In this document: one piece after another, positions 11,420-42,684 of the stretch
Layout: every line of letters begins with the position of its first letter
Position numbering within the stretch: position 1 is the stretch's first letter
DNA from: Gymnopus androsaceus JB14
Lineage: Eukaryota > Basidiomycota > Agaricomycetes > Agaricales > Omphalotaceae
Assembly (NCBI GenBank): GCA_009733575.1
Contig: ML769431.1
Location: 186,001-250,000, forward strand
Direction: 5' to 3'
DNA: 64,000 nt
Notes under the pieces: generated by a model
Told to the model about the DNA's origin: nothing
Seen by the model: the letters and a program-made list of their open reading frames with translations, nothing else
The model's database searches: none
Made by a program: the position numbers and the translations under genes

Positions 11420-12194
11420 CATCAGCAAAACCCGTATTTTCGCTGGAGCTGCTGGAGCATCCAGAGAATTGAATAAGTCTCCAGAGAGCTCTGGAGAACT
11501 CTGGAGATGCTGGAGAGAACAAAGCTGTAGTTGCCGATTGATGGTACTTTGAGAATGATCGGAGTTTCCTTTTTTGGAGCTAGTCTGGCTGTCAGCCAGA
11601 GTAGCACCAAAAATGATGGCCTTGAGTGCCCTCAACATAATGATGGTTGCCGTCAGCAACTCCTCGTGTCATCAACAATGCTGTAAACTATTAGGAAGTG
11701 ATATAAAATGCATGGGCTTTCAACTTTCGAAGAAGATGAACTTGTATTTTTTTTTCCCTTCTCCCACTGTTGCAACGTTCCATCCTTTCACCGTAAGTTT
11801 CACTTTCACATAACATTGCTTTTTAGAGGTGATTTCCAGAAATGCAGAAGGGTTTGGGCAATGGAGGCAGATATCGAGAAGAGCACTACGGAAACATTGG
11901 GAGGGGAAAAACAGGAGACTCATCCAGTACTTGCCACTTATTACTACTACATAATAATAATATTTGCTGCAGTGCACCTAAATTTCGTCACAGTACATAA
12001 AAATGATGAATATAAAATTTCTATTATTAATGCATGGTTACACGACATGGAAACTTGATTGAATAGCTCTCTGGAGGTCTCCAGAGGTCTCCAGAGGTTT
12101 ATATTGGTCTCTGGAATAGGTAACCTTGCTCCAGCTGCTCCAGAAGCTCCAGGCGCTCTGGAGATCTCTGGAGACCACCCAGGTTTTGCTGATG
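11420..12194. mobile_element. CATC-family element 1 (775 bp)
   Basis: Begins CATCAGCAAAACC and ends GGTTTTGCTGATG, with a 2-bp target duplication CA on each side. The subterminal zones are iterated CTCCAGAG / CTCTGGAG words in both orientations. The interior is about 90% like the 779-bp elements at 13676 and 24798 by eye. Short frames inside are not convincingly coding. Confidence 0.85.
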
Positions 12195-12644
12195 CAGCTC
12201 ACTTGCTGGCTTCCCAACAATGGTCATTGCCGGAGTCTAGAGATAAAGCTAAAACCTGATCTGGCATGGAAAGAATGTGGAAGAGAATTAGTAGAGGCCC
12301 AGCTGAGGTCCTTCCACCCCGCGTACTTCATTTTCTTCGTCCCGAGTTGACCCCAAGCTCCTTAACTTTGGTGCCTTTGTTCTCATATTGGTGCAAGCAT
12401 AAATTTTTATACTGTAAACGGTACTCCTTTGGATTCATGTATTGATTACAATGTCCGAGTTTTCAAGTTGTCAATTTATGAATCAGATTCTCAGCCTCAT
12501 TGATTAATCTTACACAGTGCTTTTAAAAAAACTACTTTTGCTATTCATTTTTAACAGCCCGAGAGGATAAGCATGCTAGGCAGTGGTGGTAGTGCATTTT
12601 CCGAAAGATATGTAATATAATTACAACAACAAAGCTTTGCCATC
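12195..12644. other. Spacer with no supported feature
   Basis: Low-CpG sequence without recognisable gene or repeat ends. Bases 12540-12640 resemble 7195-7275 and 30050-30130, so part of it derives from the duplicated segment. Confidence 0.35.
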
Positions 12645-14970
12645 CATCAGCAAAACCTGGGTGAATGCTATAGCAACTACAGCAACCTACAGCAATCCAC
12701 AGAAGCCACAGCACTCTACAGTTCTGTGGACTGCTGTGAAGTCCTGTAGGTTGCTGTAGGTTGAACATTGCTTGACCATTTGACATCTGTCATTGATGGA
12801 TACAGCAATGGGGACCTTGGACACTGTTCAACAAGCGGCGAGCGCGCGAGATGCAAAGCTCAACTTCTCTTCTTCCCCCCACTGAGCTCACTTGACTCAG
12901 ACTGTAAATTCTCCTCCTTGTAGTTTTCATACTATATTTAATGACTTATTTTAGCTTTGGATTTCACAACAACATGGTAATACTAATAGGTAGTGGTGGT
13001 CAAGTGGTGTACAGTATTCTGTAGACCAGTGGTAGATCACTTGGTGTTAGGGCTTACCATCGTACCGTTCATGGTCATGGCTGTGAATTTTACGGTCCGT
13101 GTCAGCCACAGTATGACCGTGACCGTACCGTGCCACTACTGCTTCAGGCATTGACACAGGATGGTACAGTACGGTACCCGTACCGTAACGGTCGACGGTA
13201 TATGATCAATGTTCTTGTACTTAATTTCAACTTGATTATTAATGTTTCCTCAAAAGAAATTTAGAAGAAACCAGGAATAGCCACTGTAGTTGAGTTCTGG
13301 TCAGTTCCAGTCAATTCACATTATAAGAAATGGCACTGTTACAAGGTATGACTTACAATCAAGACTTAATCTTATCAACTATTGCATCGCCACATCACAA
13401 TCAGTCAATGACGGTTACTCTCATTTGAAGCTTTGGCCCTCCTTAACATCTTGCAAGTTGGTTCAACAGGGTTGGAGGGGACCGTACTGCACTTGGTGTG
13501 GAAATGGCAGTGAGGAAGGTGATGACTGGTGAGCAAGTGCAATGGTACCGTGTCACGGCCGTAACGGTCAGAATGGCATGGTTCAACACAGAGTACTACT
13601 ACCATGCCATCAACCCCCCATTTGTGAAGCTAGCTGGAGGAGGCACGGGACGGGCACCATTCCATGTCACAGTGACATCAGCAAAACCAGTATTTTCACT
13701 GGAGCTGCTGGAGCAGCCAGAGAATTGAATCAGTCTCCAGAGAGCTCTGGAGAACTCTGGAGACTCTGGAGAGAACAAAGCTGTAGTTGCCGATTGATGG
13801 TACTTTGAGAATGATGGGACTTTCCTTTTTTGGAGCTAGTCTGGCTGTCAGCCAGAGTAGCACCAAAAATGATGGCCTCGAGTGCCCTCAACATAATGAT
13901 GGTTGCCGTCAGCAACTCCCTGTGTCATCAACAATGCTGTAAACTATCAGGAAGTGATATAAAATGCATGGGCTTTTAACTTTTGACAAAGATGAACTTG
14001 TATTTTTTTTCCCCTTCCCCCACTGCTGCAAGTTGCAATGTTCCATCCTTTCACCATAAGTTTCACTTTCACATAACATTGCTTTTTAGAGGTGATTTCC
14101 AGAAATGCAGAAGGGTTTGGCCCTTGGGCAATGGAGGCAGAAATCAAGAAGAGCACTATGGAAACATTGGGAGGGGAAAAACAGAAGACTCGTCCAGTAA
14201 TTGCCACTTATTACTACTACATAATAATAACTGCTGCAGTGCACCTAAATATTGTCACAGTACTACATAAAAATGATGAATATAAAATTTCTATCATTAA
14301 TGCATGGTTACACAACATGGAAACTTGATTGAATAGCCCTCTGGAGGTCTCCAGAGGTTTATATTGGTCTCTGGAATAGGTAACCTTGCTCCAGCTGCTC
14401 CAGAAGCTACAGGTGCTCTGAAGATCTCTAGAGACCACCCAGGTTTTGCTGATGGATGGTGAACCGTGTTGTAATTTGCGCTTTGGCATTATGTAATGCA
14501 ACTCCGGATCTTGTTATGCTCCGATGTACCCATACAGCCAAGTAGAGTATTGTAGAGTATTGTAGAATATTCTAGATATAATATGGACATGTATATAAGG
14601 CCTACTGTAGAGGCCAAGTAGATAACAACAATATTTTATCCTCACTTCAAGCCTTACAGCTCAGTCAGTCCCTGCACCATATATTTACAACCAACCGTGG
14701 GGACACGGGCATGGTGGTAAGCCCTACTTGGTGTCAAGTACATTGTACTAATAGTAGTGTTCAATATGATTTATGATTATTCTGCCATGATTGCTCTTGC
14801 CGGCCAGGGAAACCATTCAAATGAGTAATATATTTAGTATTGAATAAGACCCTGACAGGTGACATTCCTACAAGATCCACAGTAGTCTACAGCAATCCAC
14901 AGCAATCCACAGTTCTGGACAGAGGGGTACCTTGCTGTGAGTGCTGTGGGTTCTGTGGGTTCTGCTGATG
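12645..14970. mobile_element. CATC-family element 5 (outer, contains element 2)
   Basis: Left end CATCAGCAAAACC with CTACAG/CCACAG subterminal words; right end GGTTCTGCTGATG with the mirrored words. The 2-bp target duplication is TC on both sides. Internal blocks (about 12780-12870 and 14800-14870) match 24370-24500 and 24700-24780 of element 4, so both come from one longer parent. At about 13000-13670 there is a stretch dense in ACGGTACC palindromes that may be another insertion, but its ends could not be fixed. Confidence 0.65.
13676..14454. mobile_element. CATC-family element 2 (779 bp)
   Basis: Ends CATCAGCAAAACC / GGTTTTGCTGATG with a GA target duplication on both sides. It is nearly identical along its whole length to element 3 at 24798-25576, which has the same length, indicating recent movement. 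It carries the same non-coding interior and CTCCAGAG subterminal repeats. Confidence 0.9.
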
Positions 14971-16120
14971 TCCAGCAATGCTTGACTTTACTTTCAGCAG
15001 TCAACTGAACATTTTTCTGCAGGCTTCTCCATGATTAAGCTGCATTGATTGACAGACTCACTGTCAGCGCCCCTTCCAGACTGAGACTCATCACTGGTGA
15101 CCTTTACAGGTTGAGGCTCCAAATGTGTATGATAAGCTGCTGAATGAGTTTGCCCTGAGACTCCTTGGCACCCTGATATTCAAATTTCAGATAAGTAAAG
15201 CTGATATTTCATAAGAAAGTAACAAACCTCAGTCCATTTGAGTGCTCTCCTTGCATCTTCCATATTTAACAACCTGCATTGTCCAAAAAACCCTGAGCCA
15301 TCTCATCTGATGGGAGTGTATTCAGAATATGATTGACCCAATGATCCTTGGCACAGAGAGCTGCATCATGAAGATAAGACTTTCCTGAGAGAATCTAAAT
15401 ACAATGTAACCCAATTTCCTTGTGGCATTCCACATAATCAATTCAGGCAAAGTCATCTTGATATTTATTGCACAGATTGTGATTCAATTGGAGTGCATCC
15501 ATATTAAAAGGTAATATGGATAGTTGTGCTGGACAGGGAGAGCACATGATCTTGTGGTCTTGTTTCAAGTCCAATTGAGGGTGGTTCAGAAGGTGGGTTA
15601 GGAACCAGTCCCTTTGGTGAGGTTGATACAAGATAAGATGAGTCTTAAGCACCAAAATTACCACCATTAGGATTTTCCTGGCTTGAGTGAGAGAGAAATT
15701 GAACATTGCAGTTGTGACTCAATGAGGATTTTTGTATATAGAGGAACAGTTTTGAATGAGTGCCAGTGAAGGTAGAAAGGAAGCTTGGGCCATGGAATCT
15801 GAGCACTTATTAATTTCTGGATGCATGACTTGGCTCAGAGTTTCTTTCAACATAGTGATTCTTGGGATAGTTTTATTGAACAGGAGGCTACAGTGGGGGA
15901 AATAGTCCATTGCAAGTTAGATGGGCCAATTCAAAGATTTTCACTAGATTATGTTTGCAAGTACAATTACACATAGTAGTACAACCAGCAAATTTAAGTT
16001 ATAATCCCTGTCTCAAAATCACCTTCCTGTTGAAGCAGACATGATCAACAGAATGGTGAGACCAGTGACTCACCTGGATATGAAGCCTTGAGAGGTCAGA
16101 CTGAGTATTGGAGAAGAAAT
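14971..16120. other. Degenerate DNA before the copia element
   Basis: No gene is supported; the longest frame (minus 15443-15706, 87 codons) has no recognisable motif. Bases 15726-15820 match 5790-5880 and are CpG-depleted, so the left end of duplicated copy 2 may extend here, with the copia element inserted afterwards. Confidence 0.4.
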
Positions 16121-16125
16121 TTCTT

Positions 16126-16759
16126 TATTAGAGTTATATTCATAAATAGGAAGTAGCAGCAGTAAGTCCACACAGGACTTAGTAGTACAATCACACAGAT
16201 TGATGGGGGATGACGGTGTTTATTACAGGGTATAGTACCTAAGCTTATATACAGTCCTAAGTACAATGATATATTGGGTAAGTGGCTGCTGCATGAATAC
16301 TTGTGGCTACTGTCCATACGTAGAGTGTACATCAGAAAACTGTTGGCAGGAGATCTAGGTCACTAGTCTCTTAGCAACCTGAGCACTAGTTGACCAGAAG
16401 TAAACTTGACACTGTATCTAGTCATCTAGTTCTGAGATCCTGGATGTGCATCCTGCATCTGCATCTGAGCATCCTGGAGAATTATCAGATGCTCAGATCT
16501 CCAGACACTAGATGACTAGTACTGAGGTGTCAAGTTTACTTTTCTGACTAGATGCTCAGGTTGCTAGAGACTAGGACTTAGATCTGGCAACAGTTTGCGA
16601 TGTACTATGAGAGAGCAAGTGGATGTGGTGAGAGACTGAGTGGAGTCTGCGAGATGATAACAGTGGAGTGCATGGGATGGTGATACAAACAATTGGAGAC
16701 TACAAGAAAGTGTTCCATGTATAGTTTGATAAGATATATTTACCTTTGATATTCCAACA
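16126..16759 (-). repeat. Copia 3' LTR (with MITE insertion)
   Basis: Matches the 5' LTR (22768-23397) once the 270-bp MITE at 16331-16600 is removed; the LTR itself is about 360 bp. On the minus strand it begins TGTTGGAATATC and ends CTCTAATA. Confidence 0.93.
16331..16600. mobile_element. Palindromic MITE, 270 bp, inside the copia 3' LTR
   Basis: Flanked by TGTAC on both sides (16326-16330 and 16601-16605) and absent from the other LTR, which shows the uninterrupted site. Its two halves are long imperfect inverted repeats of more than 80 bp, so the element can fold into one hairpin. Ends are ATCAGAAAACTG and CAGTTTGCGA. Confidence 0.88.
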
Positions 16760-16768
16760 CTCCTCTTC
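16760..16768 (-). other. Copia polypurine tract
   Basis: On the minus strand GAAGAGGAG lies immediately before the 3' LTR start, the position of plus-strand priming. Confidence 0.7.
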
Positions 16769-18496: not shown

Positions 18497-18514
18497 TTTG
18501 CCAGGTTCCTTTTC

Positions 18515-19180
18515 TCATTTGACATAAACAATACTGCCGAAGATGTGAAGATTAGTAATGTCTGGTTTAATACCAAACCGTTTCTTGTATGGAGTGGCCA
18601 TTCCGATGGCCTTCTTTGGCATACAATTCCAAACATATACTGCATATTTCATCATGAATCCCCAAAGCCATTTCAGGAGTCCTGATGAGATCAAAAGACT
18701 TTGAACTGCGTTAAGCAATGTTCGATGTGCGCGTTCCGCTATACCATTGTGTTCTGGGGTGTTGTGTACCGTGAGACATTGTTGTGTTCCAATACGTTCT
18801 AGATATGCTGTGAATTCATTACTGAGAAATTCTCCCCCTCAATCAGAGTGGAGAACTTTGACAGTTGTGCTGTACTGTGTTTGGAGACCTGTTTGGAGAA
18901 CCACGTACTGTGTGAATGACTTGTCCTTCAACTTCATTTGGGGTTCCTCCAACCAATCAGTTGCTTTGTCAACTAGAGTCAGCGTGTAAGTGCAATAGTT
19001 TACCGTCCTGACTTGTGCTGGTCCCCATACGTCCATGTGGAAAATGTCTCCAAATTTCTCTGCATGGGGAGATGATTGCACCTGAGCAATAGGATACCTG
19101 GATGCTTTCCCAAGCATACAAGCGTGGCATTCTGGTTTGTCCATTTGTTTTGGATCCAATCCGATTCCACAAACCTGATT
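18515..19180 (-). pseudogene. Copia integrase (TGA in the catalytic core)
   Basis: The zinc-binding pre-integrase end (ECHACMLGK) is followed by FHMDVWGPAQV with the first catalytic Asp, then VLHSD, a TGA, then GGEFLSNEF and HNTPEHNGIAERAHRTLL with the catalytic Glu. The usual motif is HSDRGGEF, so the stop is an Arg CGA codon changed to TGA. The frame is continuous with the protease part across the 1204-bp insertion. Confidence 0.88.
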
Positions 19181-20384
19181 CATCTGGAAAACTACCTAAA
19201 GCCCAGGCAAGTCCAGGTGTGCCTGGTCACTCTCAGGGATGCCCAGGAATTTGGCCAATTCCTAGGCAACACTAGGCAACCCAAGCACCCCAGGTAGCCC
19301 AGGATTTTGGCCAAATTCTAGGGATCCTTGAGTATCTCTGAAGTTAATCATGAATTAGCCTCAAGCAAGCCCAAAGATCTTCAGGATTTGGCTAAAATCC
19401 TAGGCTGCCCAGGTTGCTTGGGCTGCCTAGGAAATGGGAAAATTCCTGGGGATCCTGGGAAGCTCTGGGAAGCCCTGGGACAGCTGTGGGAAGCCCTGGG
19501 ACACCCTGGGAGAGGGATCATGTGCTCGTGCTTACGAGCACGTGATTTAAGCGCCCATCCGACGTTTTGGCCTGCATACTTTATGTCTTAATTAAAAGCT
19601 ACATTATATTCACAACAAAATTAAGTTTAACCAAAAGACAAAACATTGAGTCTAGTTTTCGCATTTCAAGCCCTTTTCACCTAAGAATAATTACTGGTAA
19701 CATTGTAGATAGTCTCGGTAGACTATAATGGGAGAATGGGTTCATGAAGTGCTTATCAATTTTCTTACTTATAGGTGATGCTGACCCCACTAGTTAGTGT
19801 ATATAGTGCATAAAGTTTCTAGCATATCTTACATCAAGATAGTTCAGTGGTTTTGAGCTCTCGCATTATTGCTTACATAATACAGTTGACTGCGAGGCTG
19901 AGAGTTCAAACCTGTGAGGTGTCAATCTTTGAGTTTATCATGAGTCACTTGAATTTAAGCACTGAAACACCAAATGAATAAGACAATAATAAGCAGTGAG
20001 CAATAAGCACAACAACCATCTATAATAAGTGTATTAAGTAGCGAGACTTGAATAATGAATAATGAATAAGTAAACAAAGAAGGTAAATATGAGCATAAGA
20101 GGCTAAGATGGTAAAAAATATGCTATTTTAAATATTTTCTCTATGGATTCCCAGGGCACCCCAGGGACACCCAGGGATGATCAGGGACACCCCAGGGATA
20201 TTCAGGGACACCCCAGGAATATTCAGGGACACCCCAGGGATACTTTTCTATCCTCAGGATGCACAGGATTTGGGGGTTTCTTTGGGGTGCCTGGGGTGCC
20301 TAGACATCCTGGGTGTCCTAGTCACCCTGTGGGTACCTCAGTGCAACCTATATGTTCCTAGGCACTAGGGAATTTTTCCAGATG
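19181..20384. mobile_element. CATC-type element 8 (1204 bp) inside copia pol
   Basis: Ends CATCTGGAAAA and TTTTCCAGATG with TT on both sides (19179-19180 and 20385-20386). Removing the element and one TT restores RDNQVCG in the copia frame exactly, which proves the boundaries. Subterminal zones are iterated CCCAGG/CCTGGG words at 19190-19500 and 20140-20360. The middle is AT-rich and contains a tRNA-like stretch. Confidence 0.9.
19833..19920 (+). other. tRNA-like stretch with Pol III box A and box B
   Basis: TAGTTCAGTGG (19840-19850) matches box A, and GAGTTCAAACCT (19902-19913) resembles box B. Between them CTCGC and GCGAG could form an anticodon stem around an intron-like insert. The acceptor arm does not pair and the T stem has mismatches, so this is a degenerate tRNA or SINE head, not a working tRNA. 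Confidence 0.35.
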
Positions 20385-22050
20385 TTGTCTCGGAACATGT
20401 GCTTCATGTAAGCATAGTTGAGGTGACCTAAGATGCAGTGTGCCTTGTAAAGAGATACCAATCTGCCGATCTTAGTCAAATAAGTGTGTTCCCGTGATTG
20501 GATCTGGTATAGTCCGTTAGTCTTTGGGATAACTCCCACAAGTTTCCCCTGGCAATCTCTGATTGTCATTTTACCATTAGCGGTGTGGATGGCGTAACCA
20601 TCATTGTTGAGTTTTCCCAGTGATACGAGTGTGTTGGGAGTGTCTGGACATAAAAGGGTGTGATGGAGCTTTAGCGTTTGGACTTCTTGTCCATATGTGG
20701 GGAGATCGAGATGGAGTGTGCCGGAGATGTTTGCCATGAAAGTTTCCATGTTAGCAGCCTCAATGACTTGTGTTGGAATCTCCCTTTGATTCCTGGTTTT
20801 GTCAGTGAGTGGTGTCATGTGGGTAGAACATCCGGAGTCAAAAAGAATTGCTCCATAACTGTGGGCTGCAGTGTAAGCATGATCACCTTTTCCAACTCCT
20901 TCTTCAGTGTCATATTCGAATTTGAAGGAAGGAAAGAGATTAATGTTGATGTATATTTCTTCCTCCTCTTCATTGTTAAGAGTAAGAGGTGGCGGAGTGT
21001 CAACTTTGATGTTCTGCACTATGCAGCTTTGATCACTTGGTGATGAAAGAGCTAATTCAAATTTATCAGCTATTTTGGAAAACTCAAAAACAAGATTCCC
21101 ATGCTTAGCGGGAATTTCAATTGCTGCCCATGATGATCCAGGTACTTCCTCAATCATAGATGAGGATGCCACTTTGCTGTTCTTTGGCCTATCTCTCCAG
21201 TTTCCATCTGACTTCTTCTTCTGCTTCTCTTTGGAAGGTTTTGTCTCCTTGGCCTCGTTGGCCTGACTGCGTTTCTCCAATGGACATTGATTTCCGAAGT
21301 GTCCTTTACCTCTGCAGTTATAACAAACAGAGTCCTGGCGACTCGTTGATCCTCCCCAGCCTCTGCCTCTGCCTCGGGAATTTCCCCTAAAGGAATTACC
21401 ACGACCTTGGAAACCTCCTCTTCCCCTGTTACCAGCATAGTTTGCCAATTCCTTCTTGTGATCATGTTGCATTTGGTGTACCATTGATTCAGCATGAATG
21501 GTAGAGATGAGCTCTGCAGGACTGAGCTTCTTGTCTGTTTTAGCGGAGAAAACAGCCAATGCGTTTATCGTAGCCTTGAAGGTGTCAGGGACAGAGGACA
21601 TAATGGTATTGACAAATATATCATTGTTGATATTGATTCCTCTAGCCGTGAGGTCATCGCGGATGTTGATCATGTCGTCTAAATGTTTATTGACCTTGGA
21701 TGGGTCCGTGCATTGCATAGTAGTGGAGTCACCTTTGTAAAAATGATTCAGTGAGAGCATTTTTAGAATCATAATCAGCAAGTAAATTTTCCCACAACTG
21801 CTTCGTGTTGTTGTAGTGCCTATACCTGCGGAATATCCCATCTGATAACCTGCCAATGATTGCATTCAGCAAATCACTATCCTTTCCCCTATGCTTGTCA
21901 TCTGATCCTTGAGCAAGATCAGGTTGCAGATTCCATTCCAAAATAACGCTGATAGCCGATAGATCTGGCTGCAAATTCCACTTGAGGTTTTCCACGTGTC
22001 CCAATTTGATCTGTCCAACTTTAAGGTTGTAACCTTATCAAAGGCTTTAT
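20385..22050 (-). pseudogene. Copia Gag-protease region (frameshifted)
   Basis: Reads MSKANKAFDKVTTLKLDRSNWDTWK at the start (about 22043), in the style of copia Gag (UBN2-like), with a frame break near 21860-21980. The main frame (21865-20387) has an RGRG-rich stretch, the zinc knuckle CYNCRGKGHFGNQC, and the aspartic protease motif ILFDSGCSTHMTP. It ends in KAHCILGHLNYAYMKHMFRDN, the pre-integrase domain, where the CATC-type element is inserted. Confidence 0.85.
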
Positions 22051-24246: not shown

Positions 24247-25697
24247 CATCAGCAAAATCTGGGTGGTGGTCATAGCAGCCATAGCAGCCATAGTTCTCTA
24301 CAGAACTATGAGGTGCTATGAGGTGCTATGAGCTCCTGTGGGGTTGTTGAATATTCGCACCAACTGTCAGCCTTGTTTTGACATCTCATCATCTGTCATT
24401 CAACTCCATGGGTGCCAGTGGGCACTATATAAGAGTCGAAGCGCATTGTAGCAATGTTGTAACATCAACTTCTTTCCCTCTAAGATTCTTCCAACAGTGA
24501 GTGTCTGCTTTATTTCAAGTATTCTACTAACAGGCATTGCCAGCAGTCACAACCACTCATGAGTAGTAGCTAGTAGTAGTATCACTACATTAGTACTGTA
24601 TGTAAAAATCATTATACTAGTCTCGCTACATTGTACTAGTAGTACTACAAACAAGTCAATACATTATTTATATGATTATCTTTAGTCTTGCAATGGTTTT
24701 GCACAAGAACAATTCAAATGAATAATATATTTTGTATTGAATGTTATTCTTACAGATGACTTTTTTGTGATCTCTGTCGCTCTTATAGCATTCCATACAT
24801 CAGCAAAACCAGTATTTTCACTGGAGCTGCTGGAGCAGCCAGAGAATTGAATCAGTCTCCAGAGAGCTCTGGAGAACTCTGGAGACTCTGGAGAGAACAA
24901 AGCTGTAGTTGCCGATTGATGGTACTTTGAGAATGATGGGACTTTCCTTTTTTGGAGCTAGTCTGGCTGTCAGCCAGAGTAGCACCAAAAATGATGGCCT
25001 CGAGTGCCCTCAACATAATGATGGTTGCCGTCAGCAACTCCCTGTGTCATCAACAATGCTGTAAACTATCAGGAAGTGATATAAAATGCATGGGCTTTTA
25101 ACTTTTGACAAAGATGAACTTGTATTTTTTTTCCCCTTCCCCCACTGTTGCAAGTTGCAATGTTCCATCCTTTCACCATAAGTTTCACTTTCACATAACA
25201 TTGCTTTTTAGAGGTGATTTCCAGAAATGCAGAAGGGTTTGGCCCTTGGGCAATGGAGGCAGAAATCAAGAAGAGCACTATGGAAACATTGGGAGGGGAA
25301 AAACAGAAGACTCATCCAGTAATTGCCACTTATTACTACTACATAATAATAACTGCTGCAGTGCACCTAAATATTGTCACAGTACTACATAAAAATGATG
25401 AATATAAGATTTCTATCATTAATGCATGGTTACACAACATGGAAACTTGATTGAATAGCCCTCTGGAGGTCTCCAGAGGTTTATATTGGTCTCTGGAATA
25501 GGTAACCTTGCTCCAGCTGCTCCAGAAGCTACAGGTGCTCTGAAGATCTCTAGAGACCACCCAGGTTTTGCTGATGTAGCACTTCATAGCAATCCATAGC
25601 TCTGGACATAGGGTACCCTTGCTATAGCTACTATGAGTGCTATGAGTGCTGCACAGAACTGTCCAGTTCTGTGCAGTACACCCAGGTTTTGCTGATG
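24247..25697. mobile_element. CATC-family element 4 (outer, contains element 3)
   Basis: Left end CATCAGCAAAATC with CATAGCAGC / CTATGAGG words, right end GGTTTTGCTGATG; the target duplication is TC on both sides. Two blocks in the left arm match the interior of element 5 (12645-14970), including a TATA-like CACTATATAAGAG at 24423-24435. The rest is an insertion of element 3. Confidence 0.75.
24798..25576. mobile_element. CATC-family element 3 (779 bp)
   Basis: Same length as, and almost the same sequence as, element 2 at 13676-14454. Ends CATCAGCAAAACC / GGTTTTGCTGATG, flanked by TA on both sides. Confidence 0.9.
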
Positions 25698-26002: not shown

Positions 26003-27701
26003 CATCAGGAAAACCTTAAAATTCAAATTTTGACAAATTTTGACAAATTTTGACATCCTTGTAAAATTGTGGCACATTAAGACAGATTATTGTATATTCT
26101 TGCAAAAGCTGTCAAAAGCTGTCAAACCATTGAATAACCCATAAATAATTTGGACTTACTTTTATACATTTTGCTTGGGATATTACATCGCTCAAACATG
26201 TTATTTTAGGCTTTGGAGACTGACTGCTTTCAAGTTTGAGAGTTTTGGTTAGAACAGTGAGTTGGAGTATGGACCGATGGAGCTAATGCAGGCTGATATC
26301 ATATATGAATTGGAAGTACAGAACTGCACTTGCTGGTTGTTGTCTTTGACCTTTGCAAGGTCTTTGAGCAACAAATAAGGTTTTAATAATTATCGCTACA
26401 TATGTAGAGTGAGTGTTGATACCTTGGCATGCGACATTTGATGACATGTCATTCCGGCTGTGAGCTGGAACCTGCCCTACATCAATGTCATCATATCATG
26501 TTGTGTTGACAGTGTTGTTGATTGTCTCTGTCTTCCTTCAACCACCATCTTCCTGCCAATTTATCCCTGGCTCAATGCCAGCTCGATGCAGCCATGGTCC
26601 TCAAGATTCAACAACTTTATTCTCATTGATGTTCCAAGCCACATTCTGTTGAGCCTCATCTGGAGAATGGACAAGAGTTGCTTGGTGGCAATTGTGCGTA
26701 GAACACACTCTTTGTGAAGCCCTATCTGAAGACGTGTATCCAGTTGTTCCTTGACTCCAAGTTGACAAAGGTATAGTGTCTTGTTACATGTGCTGCTCTT
26801 AAACCAATTTCTCCTGCATTTGTTAGCTTTCAAAGGTATTTGGGTTGGTCCGCATCTCTTTTTCTGGTCACTTCTTGTACTCGATTGAGCTGACTATTCC
26901 TCACTCTAGCAATGTATGAAATGGCACACATCTGCTGAGAAGGGTTATGGTTGCTGTATCTAGGTGCGCTCAACATTTTATTGTTTTGTAGTTTTGACTG
27001 AGGTCCCCTGTTGCTTCAGGTTCTCTCTGACATAGTAGTTCTGTACGTCGTTTAGATTATTATATGCTTGTTACCCCTGCAACGCTCCGCCCATTCCTCT
27101 TGCAACTGCACTTGTCATTTTTGCTCCTAGTAGTGCCTTGTCATCATTACCGTGTTGCCATTATTTGTCACTCTTGCTATACCCCAGCCCGTTCCCATTC
27201 CCACTACCCATTCCTATTATTGCTGCTCTAGTAATTGCTCTCATCTACTAGTACCACATTGCTCTTGCTACACGCCAGCCTGTTCCTCTTGCCACTACCC
27301 TTGTTGCTCTTGCTATAGTCCTGTGTCCCTCTTGCTCCTGCCATATCCCTCCTTCTATATCATGTGTCCATTATGTTGCTCTTGGTGCTTGCTACCATGT
27401 ATACTCGATTCCGATGTTGATATGTACTAGTTACTATTATTGAATGTGATGTTCGTGTTCAGTACTGTGTTTGAAGCAAACTTAATTAGTATTATAATTG
27501 CAAGTTTACAGCTCAATGAGTGAAGATATACAATGATTCAGCAAATATCTTACAAATTTTTACACTTGGTACAAACAGGGTGTCACAATATTGTCATACT
27601 TTGCCAAACTGTCAAATTTTGATTATTATGAAAAATTCTGCTACATTTTTACGGTTTCAGTCATATTGTGGCATAATATGAGTTTTGGGGTTTTCCTGAT
27701 G
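26003..27701. mobile_element. CATC-family element 6 (1699 bp)
   Basis: Starts CATCAGGAAAACC and ends GGTTTTCCTGATG, flanked by AA on both sides. Copy 1 gives the empty site (GAAGTTTTGTGAAACCAAG near 6650). The left subterminal zone repeats ACAAATTTTG; the right has CTGTCAAATTTTG. Frames such as plus 26460-26717 have no recognisable domain. Confidence 0.88.
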
Positions 27702-32732: not shown

Positions 32733-32794
32733 AATGCAGCCTGAGTAGTTCGTTATCCGAGTGGAAGTCTGAGCCCAGAGCTCTGGGGACTCAT

Positions 32795-32802
32795 GTTTTA
32801 TA
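32795..32802 (-). promoter_or_regulatory. TATA box, lactone oxidase copy 2
   Basis: TATAAAAC on the minus strand begins about 70 nt before the ATG, at the same place as TATAAAGC in copy 1. Confidence 0.5.
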
Positions 32803-33147
32803 GTGAATTCGACTGCTTCTAGTCGGGGACACTAGTATACCGTACGGCTAGACCAATTCTGGTTTTCTGCATCTTGCGTGTGGTTACATAACTGCCTTTG
32901 TTGTCGCGGTGCCAAATATTCCGAAACCTTGAACCCCCTGGTTGCTAAATTTGGTTAGTCACAGGTTAGTCATTGCAGAAAAAAAAGACATGAGCTCAAT
33001 GCGGGTTGCCTGACTGGGCCATGAAGATATGCTGAATGTGATTCAGTTTTAAATATATATATATATTGCATCCAGTGCAGACGACAGGCAGGGCCAGGGG
33101 CCCTGTTCATATCAGCTCTATAATACCGATGTACATACTGTTCTTTG

Positions 33148-36100
33148 TGACCATGGGCAAGGAGGGGCGGTCCGTCAATTCCGACCGTTAGCTTACTAAG
33201 CAACTTCCGTCTCAAAATCGTCGCACAACCTTCTCTAGCTGAATATACACCTTATATACGATCCGAAGAGGGTCATATAAGTAATAGCTGTGTATTAAAT
33301 CATTTACTGAATGTGTATAACTATAAAACAATACATTATAACTATATCAAGAATAATAATCCTCTTCAGAATCGTATCCCTCAAGGTCTTCGATGGTGAC
33401 AAGCTGCTCTGGATCTTCAACATCACCCCTAGCCTCTGGAGCTGGCTCAGGAATCTCTTGAGAAGCTCTCAAAAGGTACCTTTCAATGGCAGCTCGCACA
33501 AGAGTGATTTTATTTGGCCGTTTCCCCCACTCTTTCATAACTTTAGGGACACCGTCAGGGCCATATTTCAAATGCCACCGTAGTTCCATAGTAAGACGTT
33601 CAGCGGTAAGATATCCCTGAGCCCGAGCAGGAAGAGAACATGCAAAGTCGAGCTCGGTAACCGTTAGAATGGGCTGATGTGTAGCAACCGCATTATCAGC
33701 GGCTTGGCGTTTCTCCTGCCTCACACGCTCTTTCTGGACATTGTGCTCGGCAACCTCCTGGCGATGCTTTGCCATTTTCAGCTTGACCTCACGGGCAGCT
33801 CCCGACGCATCTTGTTCACGAGTTATTCGGCGGAGGAATTGACGCATGGCAGGGGATAAGGAGCGAAGGAAATCTGAGGTGCAGTTCATTTGATACATTT
33901 TTCGTGCATTGTACTGTGGTAAGGATACGGTTGGATTGGCGCGAGAAAATTGCCGGTACATTCCAAATGCTGCCTCGCATAAGTCGTTTGTTAGCTCCAT
34001 CCATGCCCGCTCAATTTGCTCAAGTGTTGCATTTGACAGAGGACCTCCCTTGGCAAATTCCGTGATGAAACGGAGCCAACCATCACGAGCACCTTTGAGA
34101 AGATGTATGAGGCAACCTCGGAGATGGGGTAGATCTTTGATGTAGCGATGAACAGCATAGAACGCTTCTGGGCGTTCCCAGACTTTGCCATCCAGAGATC
34201 CGGTCTCATATGATGCATCAGCACCAAGAAGAAGATCAGGATTATCAATGAGCGCATCAAGGAATGAGATAACATGTTCATGAAGCTCGCCCAGTAGTAG
34301 AACGTTATCATGTTCACGGTAAGGTCCACGAATTTCTCGCATGTACGGAACACTGACTGAGAGCCAGTATAAAGCAATAGCACAGATTTCCGTTATTGTC
34401 TGGGGACATCGGAGGCCATCATATACATTTTTCTCCATATGGTTCAAGGTACGGCTAGCTTTGTTTTCCTTGACATATTCGAGAAATCGGATGAAGAGAT
34501 CGTGATAGGTAATGAGTGTTGCACATGCTTCAGCGTGAGACTGGAACCGCGTATTGCTGGTGTCAGGGAATGATATAGTAAACCCAAGTTCGAGGTCAAA
34601 AAAGAACCGGAGTGAGTCCTGTTGACCTCTCTTCCTATCCTTGTGACGAAAAATAGCACCACAGAGACTGGCGACCTTGACTGCCCCTCCTTTTGTCTTG
34701 TCTTCTGCACGTTCCGCTGCTGCAGTATCTGGTGCGAGACTGACAGCTGCCGAGTTGTCACGGTTATACATCTTTAAGGGCGCAACTCCCACTGATTTCC
34801 AGTACAGCTCCATCGCGCAGACAGCGTATTTGAACGCATTCATCTCTTTGTGCATACAACAACCTGCCCAAAGGATGAAATCGATGTCTGCCTTCTCTGG
34901 TGCACCGAGGTTATCAAATTCACGCTGTCCAATATCGCGAATCACCTGTTCTCGCATTGCAAGAAACTTCACCACACGTTCATCGTCAGTGAGACGTTGC
35001 CATGCCTGAGGTCCACCAGCCTTTCGAATTGCCTCCTGGGTGCACTGATAAAGTAGGTCGTGCAATTCTGTCGTATTCATGGACTTCATTGACCGTTCTC
35101 CTCTCAGGTCTCGGTCACAACGGAATTTGTACTCCTTGAGCAGACGAAAGAGTTTCTTTTGGTCCTCCGCATGGTCGGAATGAAAACCCGTGACAAGATT
35201 CCAGAAGGTGCGTGCGTCGTCTTCCGAGATAAGACCACTTTCAAATGCCAGGTGATAGATTTCTTCAACGAGCTCAATCCAACCTCCGAGCTGGGTCTCA
35301 CTTGTATGGTTGACAGCCATCTGGATCCCTAGGAAGAACTGGAGCTTGCGCGATGCACTACCAGGTCCGTCGTTCTGAATAACAACTGCATTCCTGCATT
35401 CATACGTTTCATGTTTATGAGAGGTACCATCGCCACTGAGCGTTACTCCTAATAAAGGTCAGTTTGGATTTTATAGGATGCAACGGTTTGCTTACCTTTT
35501 GCTGTTTTCAATGCATCAGCAAATTGGAGCTTCGATGCAATCCCCCCTTCCTTCACAATCCGTGCCGTGCTGCGACGCGACGCGTTTCCTTCTACTTTGA
35601 CACCCATCGCTTCAGCAATACGTTGAATGATACGTGATACGCGACTAGTTGGAACGTTTTCGAGGGCCACAAGATCATTGATTAAGGTACGAGCATCATC
35701 GGGGATAATTCCGTTCTCCTTCATAAGAAATGTGGGCTGTGGGTGACCTGGATCCTGATCAGGCTTGGAAATGATAGCTCTGGCGTGTCGAACAACGTTA
35801 TCGAGACGTTGTGGAATTCGTTTGATGGTCGCTTTAGCAGTGTGAAGCTCCTTTTGGTAACGAGCCTTATCTCCCTTCAAAATTTCGACCTTCTCTGCTA
35901 GTTTCTCGCCTCTCATCTTCTCCTTCTCGAAGTTCTTTTCTGACGCGCTCAACTCCTTCTCTTTCTCCTTCAAAACCAGGTTCAGCTCCTTCAATTGAGA
36001 TCGAGAAGTATCTGCTTTCTTCTTCCAGTACACGGCTCTCTTTTCAGAATTTTCCTTCTCGCGTTTGTATTCATCTCCACGCGTTTTCTGCCGTTTTGTT

Positions 36101-36747
36101 TCTCTTTCCGCAATCTCTCCATCATCTTGCTTGTTGCTGTCGACCGCGTCATCGTGATTGGTGTCGATCTCCTGATGATCTTCATTTGGTTCTGATTTAG
36201 CTTTAGCAGTAGCAGCACGCGCCGTAGCCATTCGAGCCTGTGCAGAGGCTTTGCGACCTCTTTTACCACCAGATCCATTCCGCATTGCCTTGTTGATAAG
36301 ACTAGGACGCGTATACATCGTGAAAATGGGCCAGAGGAATATATGTGGACGATTTTCGAGTGGATTGTCGAGGCGGCGGCAAATAGGCGCCCTTTAAGCG
36401 CGCCCAAAGAGCGCGACAATATTTGGCAGCATCCGGCTACTTTTTCCCCCCGGAATTGGCCGGGATACACTACTTGTATAGAAATAAATGTATGGGATTG
36501 GCCCGATTTTGTGTAATGTACTGGGAGCTTTCATTTCCATATGTTATCTGCTTCGACAAACATGTTATTAAAATTTAGCTCAATCACATACATTTATATC
36601 ATTATTCTAATTCTATCCCGCGAAAAAAAATAATGGGTTGTGTGTCTTGTTCTGGTTAAATATTGTTGCGTGAAACGACACTGTGAGAAAGGACTTCGGC
36701 TGGCTAATGCCCGGGATCAGCGGTCCGCCCCTCCTTGCCCATGGTCA
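33148..36747 (-). mobile_element. Autonomous-looking DNA transposon, 3600 bp
   Basis: Terminal inverted repeats of 27 bp start TGACCATGGGCAAGGAGGGG, with one mismatch between ends. The flanks are TTCTTTG (33141-33147) and TTCTTTG (36748-36754); if the outer T/A is not counted as TIR the duplication is 8 bp, TTCTTTGT. Copy 1 of the duplicated segment lacks the element, so the insertion is certain. It holds one spliced gene for an RNase-H-like transposase. The structure is complete and undamaged. Confidence 0.92.
33347..36318 (-). CDS. Putative DDE/RNase-H-fold transposase, 974 aa
   Basis: Two exons, 36318-35496 and 35448-33347, joined by a 47-bp GT-AG intron; together 2925 nt, in frame and intact. 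Exon 1 encodes a basic N-terminus (GGKRGRK), an acidic Asp/Glu stretch, a long Lys/Glu-rich coiled coil (about residues 85-180) and a helical part (SRIIQRIAEAMGV). The spliced product gives VTLSGDGTSHKHETYE, with a probable first catalytic Asp near 281. ADIDFILWAGCCMHKEMN near 460-475 has an Asp followed by a C-x2-H pattern, as in the second-Asp region of several eukaryotic transposase superfamilies. ELTNDLCEAAFG near 766 offers the acidic third residue. From memory, agaric genomes hold many similar proteins labelled hypothetical. The assignment rests on TIRs, target duplication and these motifs. Starts at 36318 or at MRNGSGGKRGRK are both possible. Confidence 0.8.
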
Positions 36748-37080
36748 TTCTTTGTCGCCAGAAAACTCACCAATAGCGAAGAATCATACTCGACTAGTAG
36801 CAGCTCAAGAAAGAAAAACTCAAGTTTGCGAGTACTAAAATCAAAAAAGACAGGTGGAGCATACTCAACAATTGACGAGAGTGGGATTCAACCCCTTTCA
36901 GATATTATCCAGTGCACTGGTTTCTTCAGTCTGGCGTTTTAGATTCTATATTCAATCTTCTACCTCTGGAGTCTGCCTCTTCATCCATACTACGCTTCTT
37001 CACTCCGGAAATTAGCCTGAGCTCAAGCACACAACAAAAGGCATTGTCTCAATTGCCGTCCGTTCACTCAAGCAGGCTGA
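36748..37080 (+). repeat. Right end of segmental duplication copy 2
   Basis: Matches 10270-11310 without the two MITEs, and so shows their empty sites. It encodes the same unrecognised stretch (MHWFLQSGVLDSIFNLLPLE) near 36912. Confidence 0.85.
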
Positions 37081-37862
37081 GGCCGCATCTTCATCCTTGA
37101 ATCTACCAATGCTTCCATTCTTCGCAATTCTTCCTTTGTGGGCTCAGCTCGCAATTCCATGAAGAATATATCACGCGATTGTGTTATTTGAGTACGACTT
37201 TCATGAAAGGTGAGGAGAGCACCATACGTGATGTGTGGGAAGTGAGCTAGGGTCGATGAAGTCGGTGGATATAATTCGGATATGTTGGAGGTGAGGACAG
37301 AGCATGCCAGCATGAATATCTGGTGTCCCGAGATGCATAAAAACAGAGTCATCCACAGAACTCCCAGTCACATCATCCACCAGTATTTTTCCAGCGCCAA
37401 TCTCCCGAAGGCTCGGAACGAGCGCGAGACATTTGAGCAATTCATTCGTTGTCATTAACATGCTCAACGAAAGCGACTTTAGGTTCTGCGGTGATGATAA
37501 GGCAGAGAAAATGACCATGAGATCTCTTCGATTGCTCCGACTGAGAACCGCCGGGCAGAAAAGGGAGCGGAAAAATATTGGGACCAATGTTGGTACTGCA
37601 TCGTCATGACTCGGATCTGGGGTGATTTCTCCTCGAAGTATGAGTTGTATCTCCCGCATTTCGGGAAGATTAACAACAAGATTTCCATCGGCAAGTACTC
37701 CGTCGGGCATATAAATCAAGATTGAGAGTGACGAGTACGTGCCAAGATGTTCAGGATTTCTCGCGGAGAGATAGCCGTCCCATCATATATCACAGGTTGT
37801 AATATGAGCTCGGCTAAATTTCCCCAGTCCAGCTCCAATCGATCATAATGCCTAAAAGCCAT
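37068..37862 (-). pseudogene. F-box/LRR-like protein fragment, frameshifted
   Basis: The minus strand encodes leucine-rich segments typical of agaric F-box proteins: MAFRHYDRLELDWGNLAELIL, LPEMREIQLILRGEIT, LKSLSLSMLMTTNELLKCLALVPSLREI, then LCPHLQHIRI and a C-terminal EPTKEELRRMEALVDSRMKM. Frame breaks lie near 37718 (SQS to LIYMPDG) and near 37250 (DFIDPSSL to LAHFPHITYG). The N-terminal F-box is not visible, and the last codons run into the end of the duplicated segment, so the 3' end may be rearranged. Such proteins would recruit targets to SCF ubiquitin ligases; here the gene is dead or mis-spliced. Confidence 0.6.
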
Positions 37863-38590
37863 TTATCTCCAGCTTCTTCAACGCTAGGCTCGTGACCATC
37901 CGTTTCTATTTGAAACTATGGCACAGCCATCTCGGACCGAAGGATCCGTAGACCGGAGGAATTTCCTTTGTTTATGGTACAAACAAACGGATTTGGTTGT
38001 TTACACCAAATAAATTACGTAGCACTGCATGCAGGAACTCATAAGTTTCCGGACAAATCAACAACTTATTGAAAACAGCCGAAATGTTCCGAAACGGAAG
38101 TTTCCGGACTTAGGTAAATCTTATCAATAAACTTATCAATTGCAAACAATAGATAAGTTTCACCGAAGTTGGCAATCTTATGTGACAACTTATAAAAATC
38201 TTAATGTGACATTTTGTCACATTAAGATTTCCGTAAGTTCATTCAACTTATGAAAACCTTACGGAAAAATTAGGAAAATATATTGAAAAACTTAGGAAAA
38301 ACTTATGAAATTGGATAAATGATAAGATTAAGATAAGATTACAATAAGTAGGGGAAACTTATGGAAATCCTTTCGTAAACTTAGACTAAACTTATGGAAA
38401 TCACATGAAGGACATTTAGAAAACTTACAAAAATTTAAGCTTGATAAGATTAAGATAAGATAATCAACATCAGGTAAACTTAGTGAAATCATATTGTGTG
38501 ACTGTGACATGATAAGATTAAGAGATTATTAAAAAAATATGTTCAATATCCCAAATTGAAAACTTATGAAAAACTTATGAAAATTGGTGT
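37863..38590. other. AT-rich region with iterated AACTTATGAAA words
   Basis: After about 38030 the sequence is dominated by CATAAGTTT / AACTTATGAAA words in both orientations, plus GATAAGATTAAGATAAGATT repeats. It looks like the subterminal zone of a small element, but no consistent ends or target duplication could be fixed. No gene is supported. Confidence 0.45.
38196..38230. repeat. Perfect 16-bp inverted repeat with 3-nt loop
   Basis: AAATCTTAATGTGACA, TTT, then the exact reverse complement. It lies in the middle of the AT-rich iterated region. Confidence 0.85.
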
Positions 38591-40864
38591 GCTAGATAAT
38601 CAAGAGTTGGGCAGGGTGAGCAGCATCCAAGTCGAGAGCCATTGATATGAGCCCAATTCGAACATTTCAGCATGAATGATCAAGTGGAATTCAAGCCATT
38701 GAGCACAGTGGATGAACCAAATTTGAGCCATTGAGGCTGATTTGACCACTGACAATGGATGAGCCTAAGTTGAGCAGTTGAGCATGATCAAGCTGGATTC
38801 AAGGAGCTGAGCATAAGGTCAGCCCTTGAGTATGGATGGGCAATGGAGCATGATTGAGCCTAATTTGGGCAGTTGAGCACAGATGAGCATGGATGAGCCC
38901 AAATGGAGTAACTGAGGCAGTTGAGTATGGATGAGCCTAAATGGAGCAATTCAGCACAATTTGATCAGTTGAGCATGGATACTTAATCTGTAATTGAGCA
39001 GTATAATCTGAGCAGATGAGCATAGATGAATCCAATTTGAGCCATTGAAGCCATTTGGAATAGATAAGCTTAAGATGAGCTGTTAGGGATGATCAAACTA
39101 ATTCAAGCTGTTGAAGCTAAATTGGGCAGTTGAGCATGGAAGCCTAGATTGAGCTCACATTGAGTAGCACAGCATGATTCAAGCAGTTGATCATGGACAA
39201 GCTTAAATTGGGCCATTGAGCATGGATGAGCCTAAATTGAGCTGTTGAGCATGATTGGAGTACGTGAGCATGGGTACACCAAAATTAGGCAGTTTAGCAT
39301 GAACCAAGCCTAATTTGAGGCATTGAGCATGGATGAGCCCAATTTGAGCCATTGGAGATGGATACTGTAAGTCTAAATTGAGCAGTTGAGTATTAAGCCC
39401 AAATTGAGCAGTTGAGCATGGTTGAGCCCAATTAAGCCATTGAGCATGCAGTGATGACTTGAGCAGCTGAGCATGTATAAGCCTAAGTTGGGCAGTTGCT
39501 TATATGGCAAGGCCAATTCAAGCTAATCCAAGCTAATGGATGAGCCCAAATTAAGGATGGACAGGGGTTAACCCCTGGGCTGGAATAGCCCTAACCTCAC
39601 CCTTACCCTCCATACCCTTACCCTTCAAACCTCCAGTTTTTACTAAGGGTTTTGGACAGAATGATGTACCACTCATGAGGCTTTGGGTAAAATAGATATA
39701 ATAACACTTGAAAACATCTTTATGGATAAGTTGAAGATTATAGGACATCATGAGATGTATATATCATCAATTTAAAAAGGGAGGGTTTTGAAGGCTTCAA
39801 CCCCTACCCTTACCCTCCATACCCTTGGGTCAAAAACCCCGGGTTGACCCCTACCCCTGTCCATCCTTAGCCCAAATTGAGCAGTTGATCGAGCAATTGG
39901 GCTTGGATGAACCCAGTTTGAGCCATTGAGCATGGATAAATATAAATTGAGCCACAGAGCATGATTCAAGCATGTGGGCATGGTTAGCCTAAATTGAGCA
40001 GTTCAGCATAAAGCAAGCCCAATTTGAGCCATCTGGCATGGATGAGTCTAAATTGGGCAGGATTTTAGCCTGATTTGAGCATGATTTGAACATGTGGCCA
40101 TGGATAAACCGAAATTGCAGTTCAGTATGAATGCACCAAGCCTTATTTGAGCCTTTGAGCATGGATGAGTCTGAGCTGTGGGGCATGATTCAAACTTATG
40201 AGCATAAAGCAAGCCTAATTTGAGCCCTTGAGCATAGATGAGACTAAATTCAGTGGTTGAGCATGGTCCAAGCATGGGAACATGGATAAATCTAAATTGA
40301 GCAGCTCAACATAAAGCAAGCCTAATTCAAATCATTGAGCATGGATGAGCCAAAGCAGTGAAGTATGATTGGAGCAGGTGAACATGTATAAGCCTAAGTA
40401 AGGCAGTTCCACATATGGCAAGCCCAATTCAAGCCATTGAGCATGAAAGTAATCCCAATTGATGCTATTAAGCATGTATGAAAAATCAAGCCATTAACCA
40501 TGATCAAGCTAATGGATAAGCCCAAATTGAGCATGACAAACCTACGTTGAGCAGTTCAGCATATGCTGTACTAAGGTAAGCCTAATTCCAGCTATTGAGC
40601 ACAGATGACCCCAAATTGGGGTGTTGAGCATGATCAAGCTAATTCAAGCTGTTGGACATGGGTAAACCTGAAATGAGCAGTTGAACATGGATGTGCCCAA
40701 ATTCAGCAATTCAGCAGGATTCAAGCAGTTGAGTATGAATAAGCCTAAAGCTCAATTTTAGCCATTGGACATGAAGCCTAAATTGAGCTGCTGAGCATGA
40801 TTGAGCCCAATTGAGCCATTGAGCATGGACAAGAGCCAAAATTGAGCTATTGAGAACAGATGTG
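38590..40864 (+). repeat. TGAGC-rich tandem repeat, left block
   Basis: Degenerate tandem array with a period of about 29 bp; typical words are TTGAGCATGGATGAGCC and AAATTGAGCAGTTGAGCATG. CpG is almost absent. Short frames inside have no biological meaning. One hAT-like element (39552-39869) is inserted in it. Part of it (39989-40275) recurs as a near-exact inverted copy at 60198-60478. Confidence 0.9.
39552..39869. mobile_element. hAT-like non-autonomous element C, 318 bp
   Basis: TIR starts TAAGGATGGACAGGGGT at both ends. The 8-bp duplication GCCCAAAT is perfect (39544-39551 and 39870-39877). The interior is rich in AACCCC/ACCCTT words. Confidence 0.9.
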
Positions 40865-40938
40865 CATCAGCAAAACCCGCATTTTCGCTGGAGAAAACCC
40901 ATTCATTTGGGACATCTCTGGAGCAAGGTACCCTATTC

Positions 40939-42572
40939 TAAGGGTGGACACGACTCCGGGTCCCGGTTTACCTGGACCTGTGATGCCGGTAACCGGAGGG
41001 CAAAACTAGCGACCTGCGACCGGTTCCAAACCCATGGGAAACCGGTTAACCGGTACCGGGACCTGCCACAGGTAAACCGGCCGGTACCTGTGTAACCTGC
41101 CAATACTAGGGCACTCACTAGTAGTAATAATATTTGTACTAACATTAGTACTTATACTAGTACTAGTATGTTTGTATTAGATTCTAGCACCGATGTTAGT
41201 ACTAAATTCAAAGACTGGTAAGTATCCAGCCATTATTGGTACAGTATTCAATACAATGTCAGTGGTAATAATACTAAAATATTTGGATAATGTCTTTTGA
41301 CATGGAGATAAGATCCAAATAAGATCTCTATACTAGTGTATTGTTACAGCCATGCCTACCGAATTACCAGCCGAGCCCTCAGACCCTATTCTATATCTAA
41401 CCAACCGGTTACCGTCTCGGCAACTCCGGCCACCGTATCGGCTCGGCTAGTCCGGCCATCACATCGGCTTGGCAACTCCGGCCATTGCATCAGTTCGGTT
41501 ACTCCGGACTTTTGACCACTTCACCAATATTGGTCAATCTACACCATTTCCGGTACTCCGGACACTTGGCCGAGGTTTCCGGTGTATTATGACCGATTAT
41601 CTCGGCATATCTCGGTCGATCATCTCGGCATAACCTCGGTATAACTCCGGTCCAGTCTCGGGAACTATTCCCACACTATTGTTTTATGCCTGTTATTGTT
41701 TTATTATCTTTCGCTTCACTATTGTCTTTTGGTACTGAATTACTTTATTGTTTTACTTACCGAGGGTCCGGTCCGGCCCCGGAACATCGGTCCCATTGGC
41801 AGTATTTAAGTAGTACAAACTTGTATAGTAACCTTAGCTCCAAAATCAACTTAGTCTGGCCTTGTACTCATTCCGAGTCCTTCCTTGACCAATTGACCGA
41901 GATTCCGGTTACTAAGCCGACACAGCCACGTGATCTCGGTCGAACCTCGGCTACGCCTTCGGTCCTACTGTCTTAACTTAGCTTAGACTTTGCCTTACTA
42001 TTTTCCTCTCGGGACACCTTACGGCGTGTCAAGGGTGTTGCCAATAGCTTCACCGAGTCCCATAACTCGCAAGGTCCAACCCGGAATCTTTCCGGACCAT
42101 TTCTGTCCGATATCTCGGCCGCTCCACTCCGGGTCGCACGGACTTAACATGTATGCACTATCACTGCTACTATAGCTGCATATATGCATCTTAATGCCAC
42201 CTCTATTATCTTACTTACTATTAATTAAGCTACTATTGGCAAAGTATTAGTACTATTAGTGTAAGTATACTAGTATTAGACACTAATATCAGTCCCAAGC
42301 AGGACTAATACATACTGTAAGTACTAACCAATAATATTAGTACACTATATTGGCACTAAGTAGTGAAATATGTACCAATATTAAAGCCAAAAAATTATTC
42401 CCACGGGTCTACCGGTACCGGCCGGTCACAATAAAAACAAAAACGGCGACCTGCAACCGGGCATAACCTGTGGGAAACCGGTACCGGGACCTGCAGGTCA
42501 AAAAACCGGCCGGTATTCCCACAGGTAAACCTGCCGGTACCGGGTCAGGACCCGGAGTCGTGTCCATCCTTA
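40939..42572. mobile_element. hAT-like non-autonomous element A (821 bp plus nested solo LTR)
   Basis: TIR starts TAAGGGTGGACACGACTCC. The 8-bp duplication CCCTATTC is perfect (40931-40938 and 42573-42580). After subtracting the nested LTR and its 5-bp duplication the length is 821 bp, identical to element B at 62848-63668. Subterminal zones are dense in ACCGGT palindromes. Confidence 0.95.
41342..42149 (+). mobile_element. Solo LTR, 808 bp, inside hAT-like element A
   Basis: Starts TGTTACAGCC and ends GACTTAACA; 5-bp duplication TGTAT at 41337-41341 and 42150-42154. The empty site is seen in element B. It is CpG-rich with iterated CTCGGCAACTCCGGCCA-like words. No coding capacity; class I origin is inferred from the TG...CA ends and 5-bp duplication. 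The strand is arbitrary. Confidence 0.9.
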
Positions 42573-42684
42573 CCCTATTCCAGAGACCTCTGAAGATCTC
42601 TGGAGAAAATTGATAGTTTTTTGATAGCTGTCAAGCTCCAGAGATCTCTGGAGACCTCCAGCGAAAATACAGGTTTTGCTGATG

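Follow-up and report, generated by a model that had tools for sequence, protein, structure and literature searches.

Short inverted-repeat elements with 2-bp target duplications in Gymnopus androsaceus and their probable relationship to PlavakaB-type transposons

Elements with common ends in the window

A 64,000-nt stretch of the genome of Gymnopus androsaceus JB14 (contig ML769431.1, positions 186,001–250,000; hereafter the window) contains eight elements with short terminal inverted repeats (TIRs), E1 to E8, whose structure, distribution and relationship to Plavaka transposons are described here. All eight begin with CATC(A/T)G(C/G)AAAA and end with the inverse of this word. Their coordinates, proposed in an initial annotation of the window, proved exact for every pair of ends, and so did the dinucleotides reported on both flanks (Table 1). 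A single mismatch, AGAA instead of AAAA, was found at one end of E2. In the window, 16 occurrences of the end word CATCWGSAAAA were counted, versus 0.29 expected. A search of the window for CATC-headed inverted ends with matching 2-bp flanks returned the eight elements and one chance-like pair, 33421–37258; five control words gave one to four pairs each in the same search.

E3 and E6, which are nested in two other elements of the set, are 99.6% identical, and E1 is a third copy of the same family (92%). Thus, the eight elements do not represent eight independent families, and the near identity of two copies at different sites points to fairly recent movement of the E1 family. E8 had been read as one element. 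Its ends and TG flanks are exact, but most of its interior is an insertion of 1634 bp belonging to a hAT-like element, so that 40865–42684 is to be read as a 178-bp copy split by this insertion.

We searched the whole 83.3-Mb assembly (934 contigs) for the same ends. The exact word CATCAGNAAAACC was found at 3,138 ends (1599 + 1539), and the reversed control at nine. The E7 end occurs 101 times, the E1/E8-type end 168 times and the E4-type end 163 times in exact form, many of the latter being paired about 1.2 kb apart. Copy sizes range from 44 bp through 110, 148 and 179 bp up to 1.2, 1.6 and 2.6 kb. One 44-bp copy (locus L040, 3806–3849; C7:632015–632058) consists of two ends with 18 bases between them and has AT on both flanks; a similar 44-bp copy, at C24:2649–2692, was noticed in the genome-wide listing of ends.

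Table 1. Elements of the window, related features and coding elements elsewhere in the genome (TSD, target-site duplication; LTR, long terminal repeat; positions without a contig are those of the window)
Feature	Position	Strand	Length (bp)	TSD or flank match	Remarks
E1	11420..12194		775	CA	13-bp TIR CATCAGCAAAACC; CTCCAG-type subterminal arrays
E2	12645..14970		2326, including nested E3	TC	CTACAG/CCACAG arrays
E3	13676..14454		779	GA	E1-family copy nested in E2
E4	19181..20384		1204	TT	ends CATCTGGAAAA; within Copia-type frame
E5	24247..25697		1451, including nested E6	TC	CTATGA/CATAGC-type arrays
E6	24798..25576		779	TA	E1-family copy nested in E5, 121 bp from E5 right end
E7	26003..27701		1699	AA	13-bp ends CATCAGGAAAACC; left-end AAATTTTGAC unit at 10-bp spacing
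E8	40865..42684		178, split by hAT element	TG	179-bp copies repeated in genome
hAT-like element in E8	40939..42572		1634	8 bp, CCCTATTC	19-bp TIR TAAGGGTGGACACGACTCC
LTR-like insert in hAT	41342..42149		808	5 bp, TGTAT	TGTTA..TAACA
E8-like end fragment	58381..58487	-			similar to E8 right end; single unpaired end 58475-58487
Empty site for E7	6563..6801	+		single AA	85% identity
Coding element	C110 99310-106070			2-bp match
Coding element	C128 177041-183645			no 2-bp match
Coding element	C373 22667-29458			2-bp match
Coding element	C646 3323-9872			2-bp match
Coding element	C585 8331-14089			2-bp match
Coding element	C123 146280-153728			2-bp match

Target-site duplication and empty sites

In total, 41 elements paired by their end words were analyzed, eight from the window and 33 from elsewhere in the genome, unpaired ends being dropped; several of them are copies of one family. 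The pair with its left end at C7:722338 was entered with the left end 722248 instead, and it too has no 2-bp match. An exact 2-bp flank match was revealed in 32 of the 41 elements. Outside the window the proportion was 24 of 33 (P 2.8e-22), while mispaired flanks matched in 7.8% of 1640 combinations. No longer duplication of fixed length was found: one element matched at 3 bp, two at 4 bp and none at 5 or 6 bp. One of the two 4-bp cases, C1:207881–208039, has no match at 2 bp. Membership of the 41 elements in the hAT group was considered and dropped, as they have neither its 8-bp duplication nor any 5- or 6-bp match, whereas the hAT nested in E8 does have the 8-bp duplication.

Four related element-free sites carry the dinucleotide once. 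For E7 the initial annotation had named an empty site in a copy 1; such a site is present at 6563–6801 (Table 1). That for C7:598908–599612 was found in locus L038, with 99% identity over 300 bases; a third, in L039 (93% identity), shows CG in place of the duplicated TG; and the one for E6, in L043, is weak (79% identity and a gap near the joint). E8 and C7:424593–425413 were left out of this comparison (many partial 66–83% matches to repeats). The proposal that removal of E4 restores a copia frame also held: once E4 and one TT are taken out, a minus-strand frame continues across the joint and is uninterrupted for over 100 residues in both directions, a single stop following farther away. The neighbouring frame, 20348–21865, contains copia-type gag domains. 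The elements thus duplicate 2 bp on insertion.

The duplicated dinucleotides had been described as arbitrary, and this part of the initial description has to be changed. T stands first or A second (TN or NA) in 29 of the 32 duplications, where 49.4% is expected from the dinucleotides of the window (P 9e-7); the 32 include related elements. Genome-wide, 742 of the 3,138 exact ends have neither (23.6% vs 50.6% expected), and TN/NA ends make up 76% vs 49% expected, in a count that includes copies duplicated together with their flanks. The elements therefore do not insert at arbitrary dinucleotides but at targets that loosely resemble TA. TA itself accounts for only five of the 32 duplications, in agreement with the earlier view that these are not TA-specific mariner elements. 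A second end was found within 30 bp of an element end in nine places, with about two expected by a rough estimate for evenly spread ends; these cases are too few for claiming that the elements prefer their own ends as targets.

Plavaka genes between the same ends

The PF18759 (Plavaka) profile matched 150 stretches in the genome and none in 14 control genomes. Two of the rarer end variants were compared with these matches, CATCAGGAAAACC (100 of its 101 places listed) and CATCAGCAAAACCG (55 of 55). One or the other of them was found on both sides of PF18759 matches in six elements of 5.8–7.4 kb (Table 1), which provides the long, transposase-encoding element with the same ends that had been expected from the window. 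All six have CATCAG termini, and five of them have a 2-bp flank match. On C183, C326 and C420 an exact end is present on one side of a Plavaka locus only.

Shorter elements without a Plavaka match listed within them were found on C76, C169, C416, C84 and C185. In the first four, the initial 24 bases are identical to those of the coding types of C110/C373, C646 and C123, and the fifth shares 23 of 24 with coding types. The 13-bp end of E7 also bounds coding elements elsewhere. None of the window elements themselves has PF18759: tblastn with the open reading frames of 20 Plavaka loci gave, as transposase remnants in the window elements, only matches of 17–18 residues to hAT repeats.

It should be mentioned that on C123 a further Plavaka coding match (153731–154084) starts immediately next to the 2-bp duplication that flanks the coding element. 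Two CATCTGGAAAA-ended pairs, C125:17066–23224 (about 6.2 kb) and C166:52243–58879 (about 6.6 kb), have no Plavaka match listed; they may represent coding partners of the elements with E4-type ends. Words of the form CATCAGAAAAA(C/G)T beside genes in L010 and L022 were tried as ends and dropped, homology running across the one in L010. The TET/JBP gene of TET-bearing PlavakaB elements was searched for with the PF20515 profile; it gave no match, and the controls gave none either.

Catalytic pattern and predicted fold of the transposase

We aligned 45 relatives of the encoded transposase, taken from 120 listed, and numbered them by P0003, a relative that shares 60% identity with the G. androsaceus query. 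D235, D339, C354-x2-C357, H563-x3-H567 and E587 are kept in 44–45 of the 45 sequences, and an N-terminal C2HC finger pattern is present in 13. Six of the 20 Plavaka loci fetched from G. androsaceus itself were scanned for the same motifs: three contain all five motif words (in one of them a stop interrupts the last word), and the other three contain four.

The AlphaFold model of P0003 has a mean predicted local distance difference test score (pLDDT) of 82.5 and a predicted template modelling score (pTM) of 0.81. When it was compared with solved structures using Foldseek, ranks 1–5 went to entries for RAG recombinase, with E from 2.6e-7 to 2.8e-6; judging by chain size, it was their RAG1 chains that matched. 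Identity was 9–11%, and the TM-scores were modest (0.33–0.37 by query, 0.48–0.52 by target). HzTransib followed at rank 6 (E 0.057), and no further match had E <0.3. Thus, the enzyme of this group is predicted to have a RAG1/Transib-like fold.

Subterminal arrays

The initial annotation had noticed dense subterminal repeats, and at many ends these proved to be family-specific words repeated every 9–10 bp. Repeated 6-mers were counted for 26 ends of 13 elements, over the 150 bases inward of each end; E1, E3 and E6 among these elements are one family. There were 183 pairs at lag 10 (2.5 in shuffled sequences) and 109 at lag 9 (2.6), with further peaks at 18–20, 29–30 and 40; interior pieces gave 10 and 20 pairs. 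In a second comparison, identity at the best of lags 9–11 exceeded that at other lags (z at least 1.9) in 23 of 24 ends, including those of two coding elements; the exception was the right end of C7:393094 (z 1.1). The repeated words are CTCCAG, CTACAG/CCACAG, CATAGC, CCCAGG or AAATTTTGAC, depending on the family.

Other features of the window

The 808-bp sequence inserted in the hAT-like element of E8 resembles a solo LTR in its ends and 5-bp duplication. This insert is missing from a second copy of the hAT-like element at 62848–63668, which measures 821 bp, is flanked by the 8-bp duplication TTTGAGCA and has about 99% identity with the copy nested in E8. A block of long minus-strand frames occupies 43670–51459. 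Of two frames scanned there, 46631–47692 contains the integrase domains PF17921 and PF00665, while 43670–44605 gave no match.

Discussion

Taken together, the eight elements, in which no transposase gene was detected, very probably belong to PlavakaB-type cut-and-paste families of the CACTA/Mirage/Chapaev/Transib-RAG1 clade. A link to the CACTA/Mirage/Chapaev group and to Plavaka had been suggested from the window, and it is strengthened here by PF18759 genes between such ends, the catalytic pattern in relatives, the RAG1-like model, and ends and duplications of PlavakaB type. PlavakaB elements of Agaricomycotina have CATCA..TGATG ends and a 2- or 3-bp duplication, and their transposase has CxxC and H(3-4)H between the second D and E, the order D, D, CxxC, H..H, E being that of RAG1 (main text of Kojima 2025, PMC12730594). 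The families described here share with them the CATCA..TGATG termini (CATCAG in seven of the eight window elements), the 2-bp duplication, a Plavaka transposase, found in the six elements outside the window, and its CxxC and H(3-4)H motifs. The placement in PlavakaB rather than PlavakaA is based on the termini. The kind of element is therefore already known, and the families are new.

Several observations weigh against this assignment. Nine of the 41 paired elements, including the coding element on C128, have no 2-bp match, and E4 begins with CATCTG, so that its CATCT departs from PlavakaB termini to the letter. No Plavaka partner was seen by eye for the E1/E8-type ends (100 of 168 listed) or for the E4-type ends (100 of 163), the two types that this comparison covered besides the variants named above, E2/E5 ends lying outside it. 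Around the transposase locus on C321, 7.2 kb of sequence contained no pair of such ends, so that they cannot be assumed for every Plavaka gene of the genome. Stop codons interrupt 17 of the 20 best Plavaka matches in a six-frame reading that takes no account of introns. The folded protein comes from Dendrothele bispora and is not a copy from this genome. Finally, a sequence-profile search among the sequences of solved structures returned neither RAG1 nor Transib, so that the link to them is made by the predicted fold and the residue pattern only.

Comparison with other systems revealed partial likenesses. CACTA/EnSpm elements resemble ours in their CA..TG termini and short duplication, and they too carry subterminal repeats. 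EnSpm as characterised in the main text of PMC12730594 has CAC..GTG termini and a 3-bp duplication, neither of which was found here. Transib and RAG1 share the predicted fold and the order D, D, CxxC, H..H, E; they differ in sequence (about 10% identity) and in their duplication, which is 5 bp in Transib/RAG and 2 bp here. Plavaka elements of another species, Marasmius oreades, were defined by PF18759 and their TIR motifs are said to be characterised; the account in PMC8290104, as far as it was available to us, gives no duplication or arrays for them. The nearest case that we found to the phased arrays is IS1535 of the IS607 family, in which assembly of the transposase is nucleated by four helically phased 9-bp motifs located about 20–60 bp from the end (PMC6188088). 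The likeness is in that respect alone: IS1535 uses a serine recombinase, has neither TIR nor duplication and is unrelated. The main text of PMC12730594 holds neither "subterminal" nor "MITE" (its supplementary figures fall outside the comparison). Relative to that text, the present analysis adds the thousands of ends, the shorter families with sizes between 44 bp and 2.6 kb, the TN/NA preference, the 9–10-bp phased arrays and the RAG1-like predicted fold of a relative. In articles searched without their supplementary files we found no account of phased arrays in Plavaka or of these families in G. androsaceus.

The following mechanism can be proposed. The 5.8–7.4-kb coding elements would supply a transposase whose catalytic core is RNase H-like (D, D, E; CxxC, HxxxH); this enzyme would recognise the shared 13-bp end CATCAGNAAAACC and, by the chemistry that we infer for it, cut there. 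It would also bind the family-specific short words of the next ~100 bp, which recur every 9–10 bp and would lie on one helix face, perhaps through its N-terminal C2HC finger. The paired ends would be excised and joined to 5'-TN/NA-3' sites with a 2-bp stagger, which would give the 2-bp duplications, and the non-coding families may be mobilised by the same Plavaka transposase. We suggest tentatively, and with somewhat less than even confidence, that the arrays (9–10-bp units starting about 20 bp inward at both ends) are a filament-like assembly platform for the RAG1-fold transposase; the 13-bp end would then be a shared cutting site, families would diverge by their array word while keeping the end, and several recognition codes could exist in parallel in one genome.

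The words spaced by 9–10 bp may be helically phased binding sites. Their periodicity could instead reflect ordinary decay of tandem repeats or a periodicity of base composition, which we regard as unlikely, though with appreciable weight. Against 3,390 background 100-mers, 21 of 36 ends lay above the 95th percentile and 11 above the 99th (Mann–Whitney p 1e-19), related copies being included; the other 15 lay below the 95th percentile, both orientations and irregular gaps are mixed within arrays, and in the two ends of coding elements that were tested, lag 11 either scored best or differed little from lags 9 and 10. Against this alternative stand the common spacing among different words of different families and the interior pieces and two hAT ends tested, which have no comparable periodicity.

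That another, unseen transposase moves the non-coding families, which would merely share the 13-bp end with Plavaka, appears improbable. The differing subterminal words and the missing partners for E1/E8- and E4-type ends would agree with it, but the 13-bp end and the 2-bp duplication are common to both groups, 23–24 end bases are shared by coding and several shorter elements, and the 13-bp end of E7 is the one that the coding group has. Tc1/mariner-like or PHIS elements with a TA or TA-like duplication would explain the preference for T first and A second as a weak form of TA; the scarcity of TA itself, the CATCA..TGATG ends and the PF18759 genes between such ends leave this reading hardly any probability, and the non-TA duplications together with these genes refute it. 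Chance 2-bp matches among related repeats, as inverted repeats without transposition might give, would suit the nine unmatched pairs but are refuted, with next to nothing left in their favour, by the excess of matches over mispaired flanks outside the window and by the empty sites.

The PlavakaB-type assignment ties abundant small transposons of a mushroom to a transposase group with a RAG1/Transib-type predicted fold, and on the tested sample it defines the duplication of the group as 2 bp, with TN/NA preferred. The phased-array architecture of the ends offers a way to test how an enzyme of RAG fold could recognise ends that are long and degenerate.

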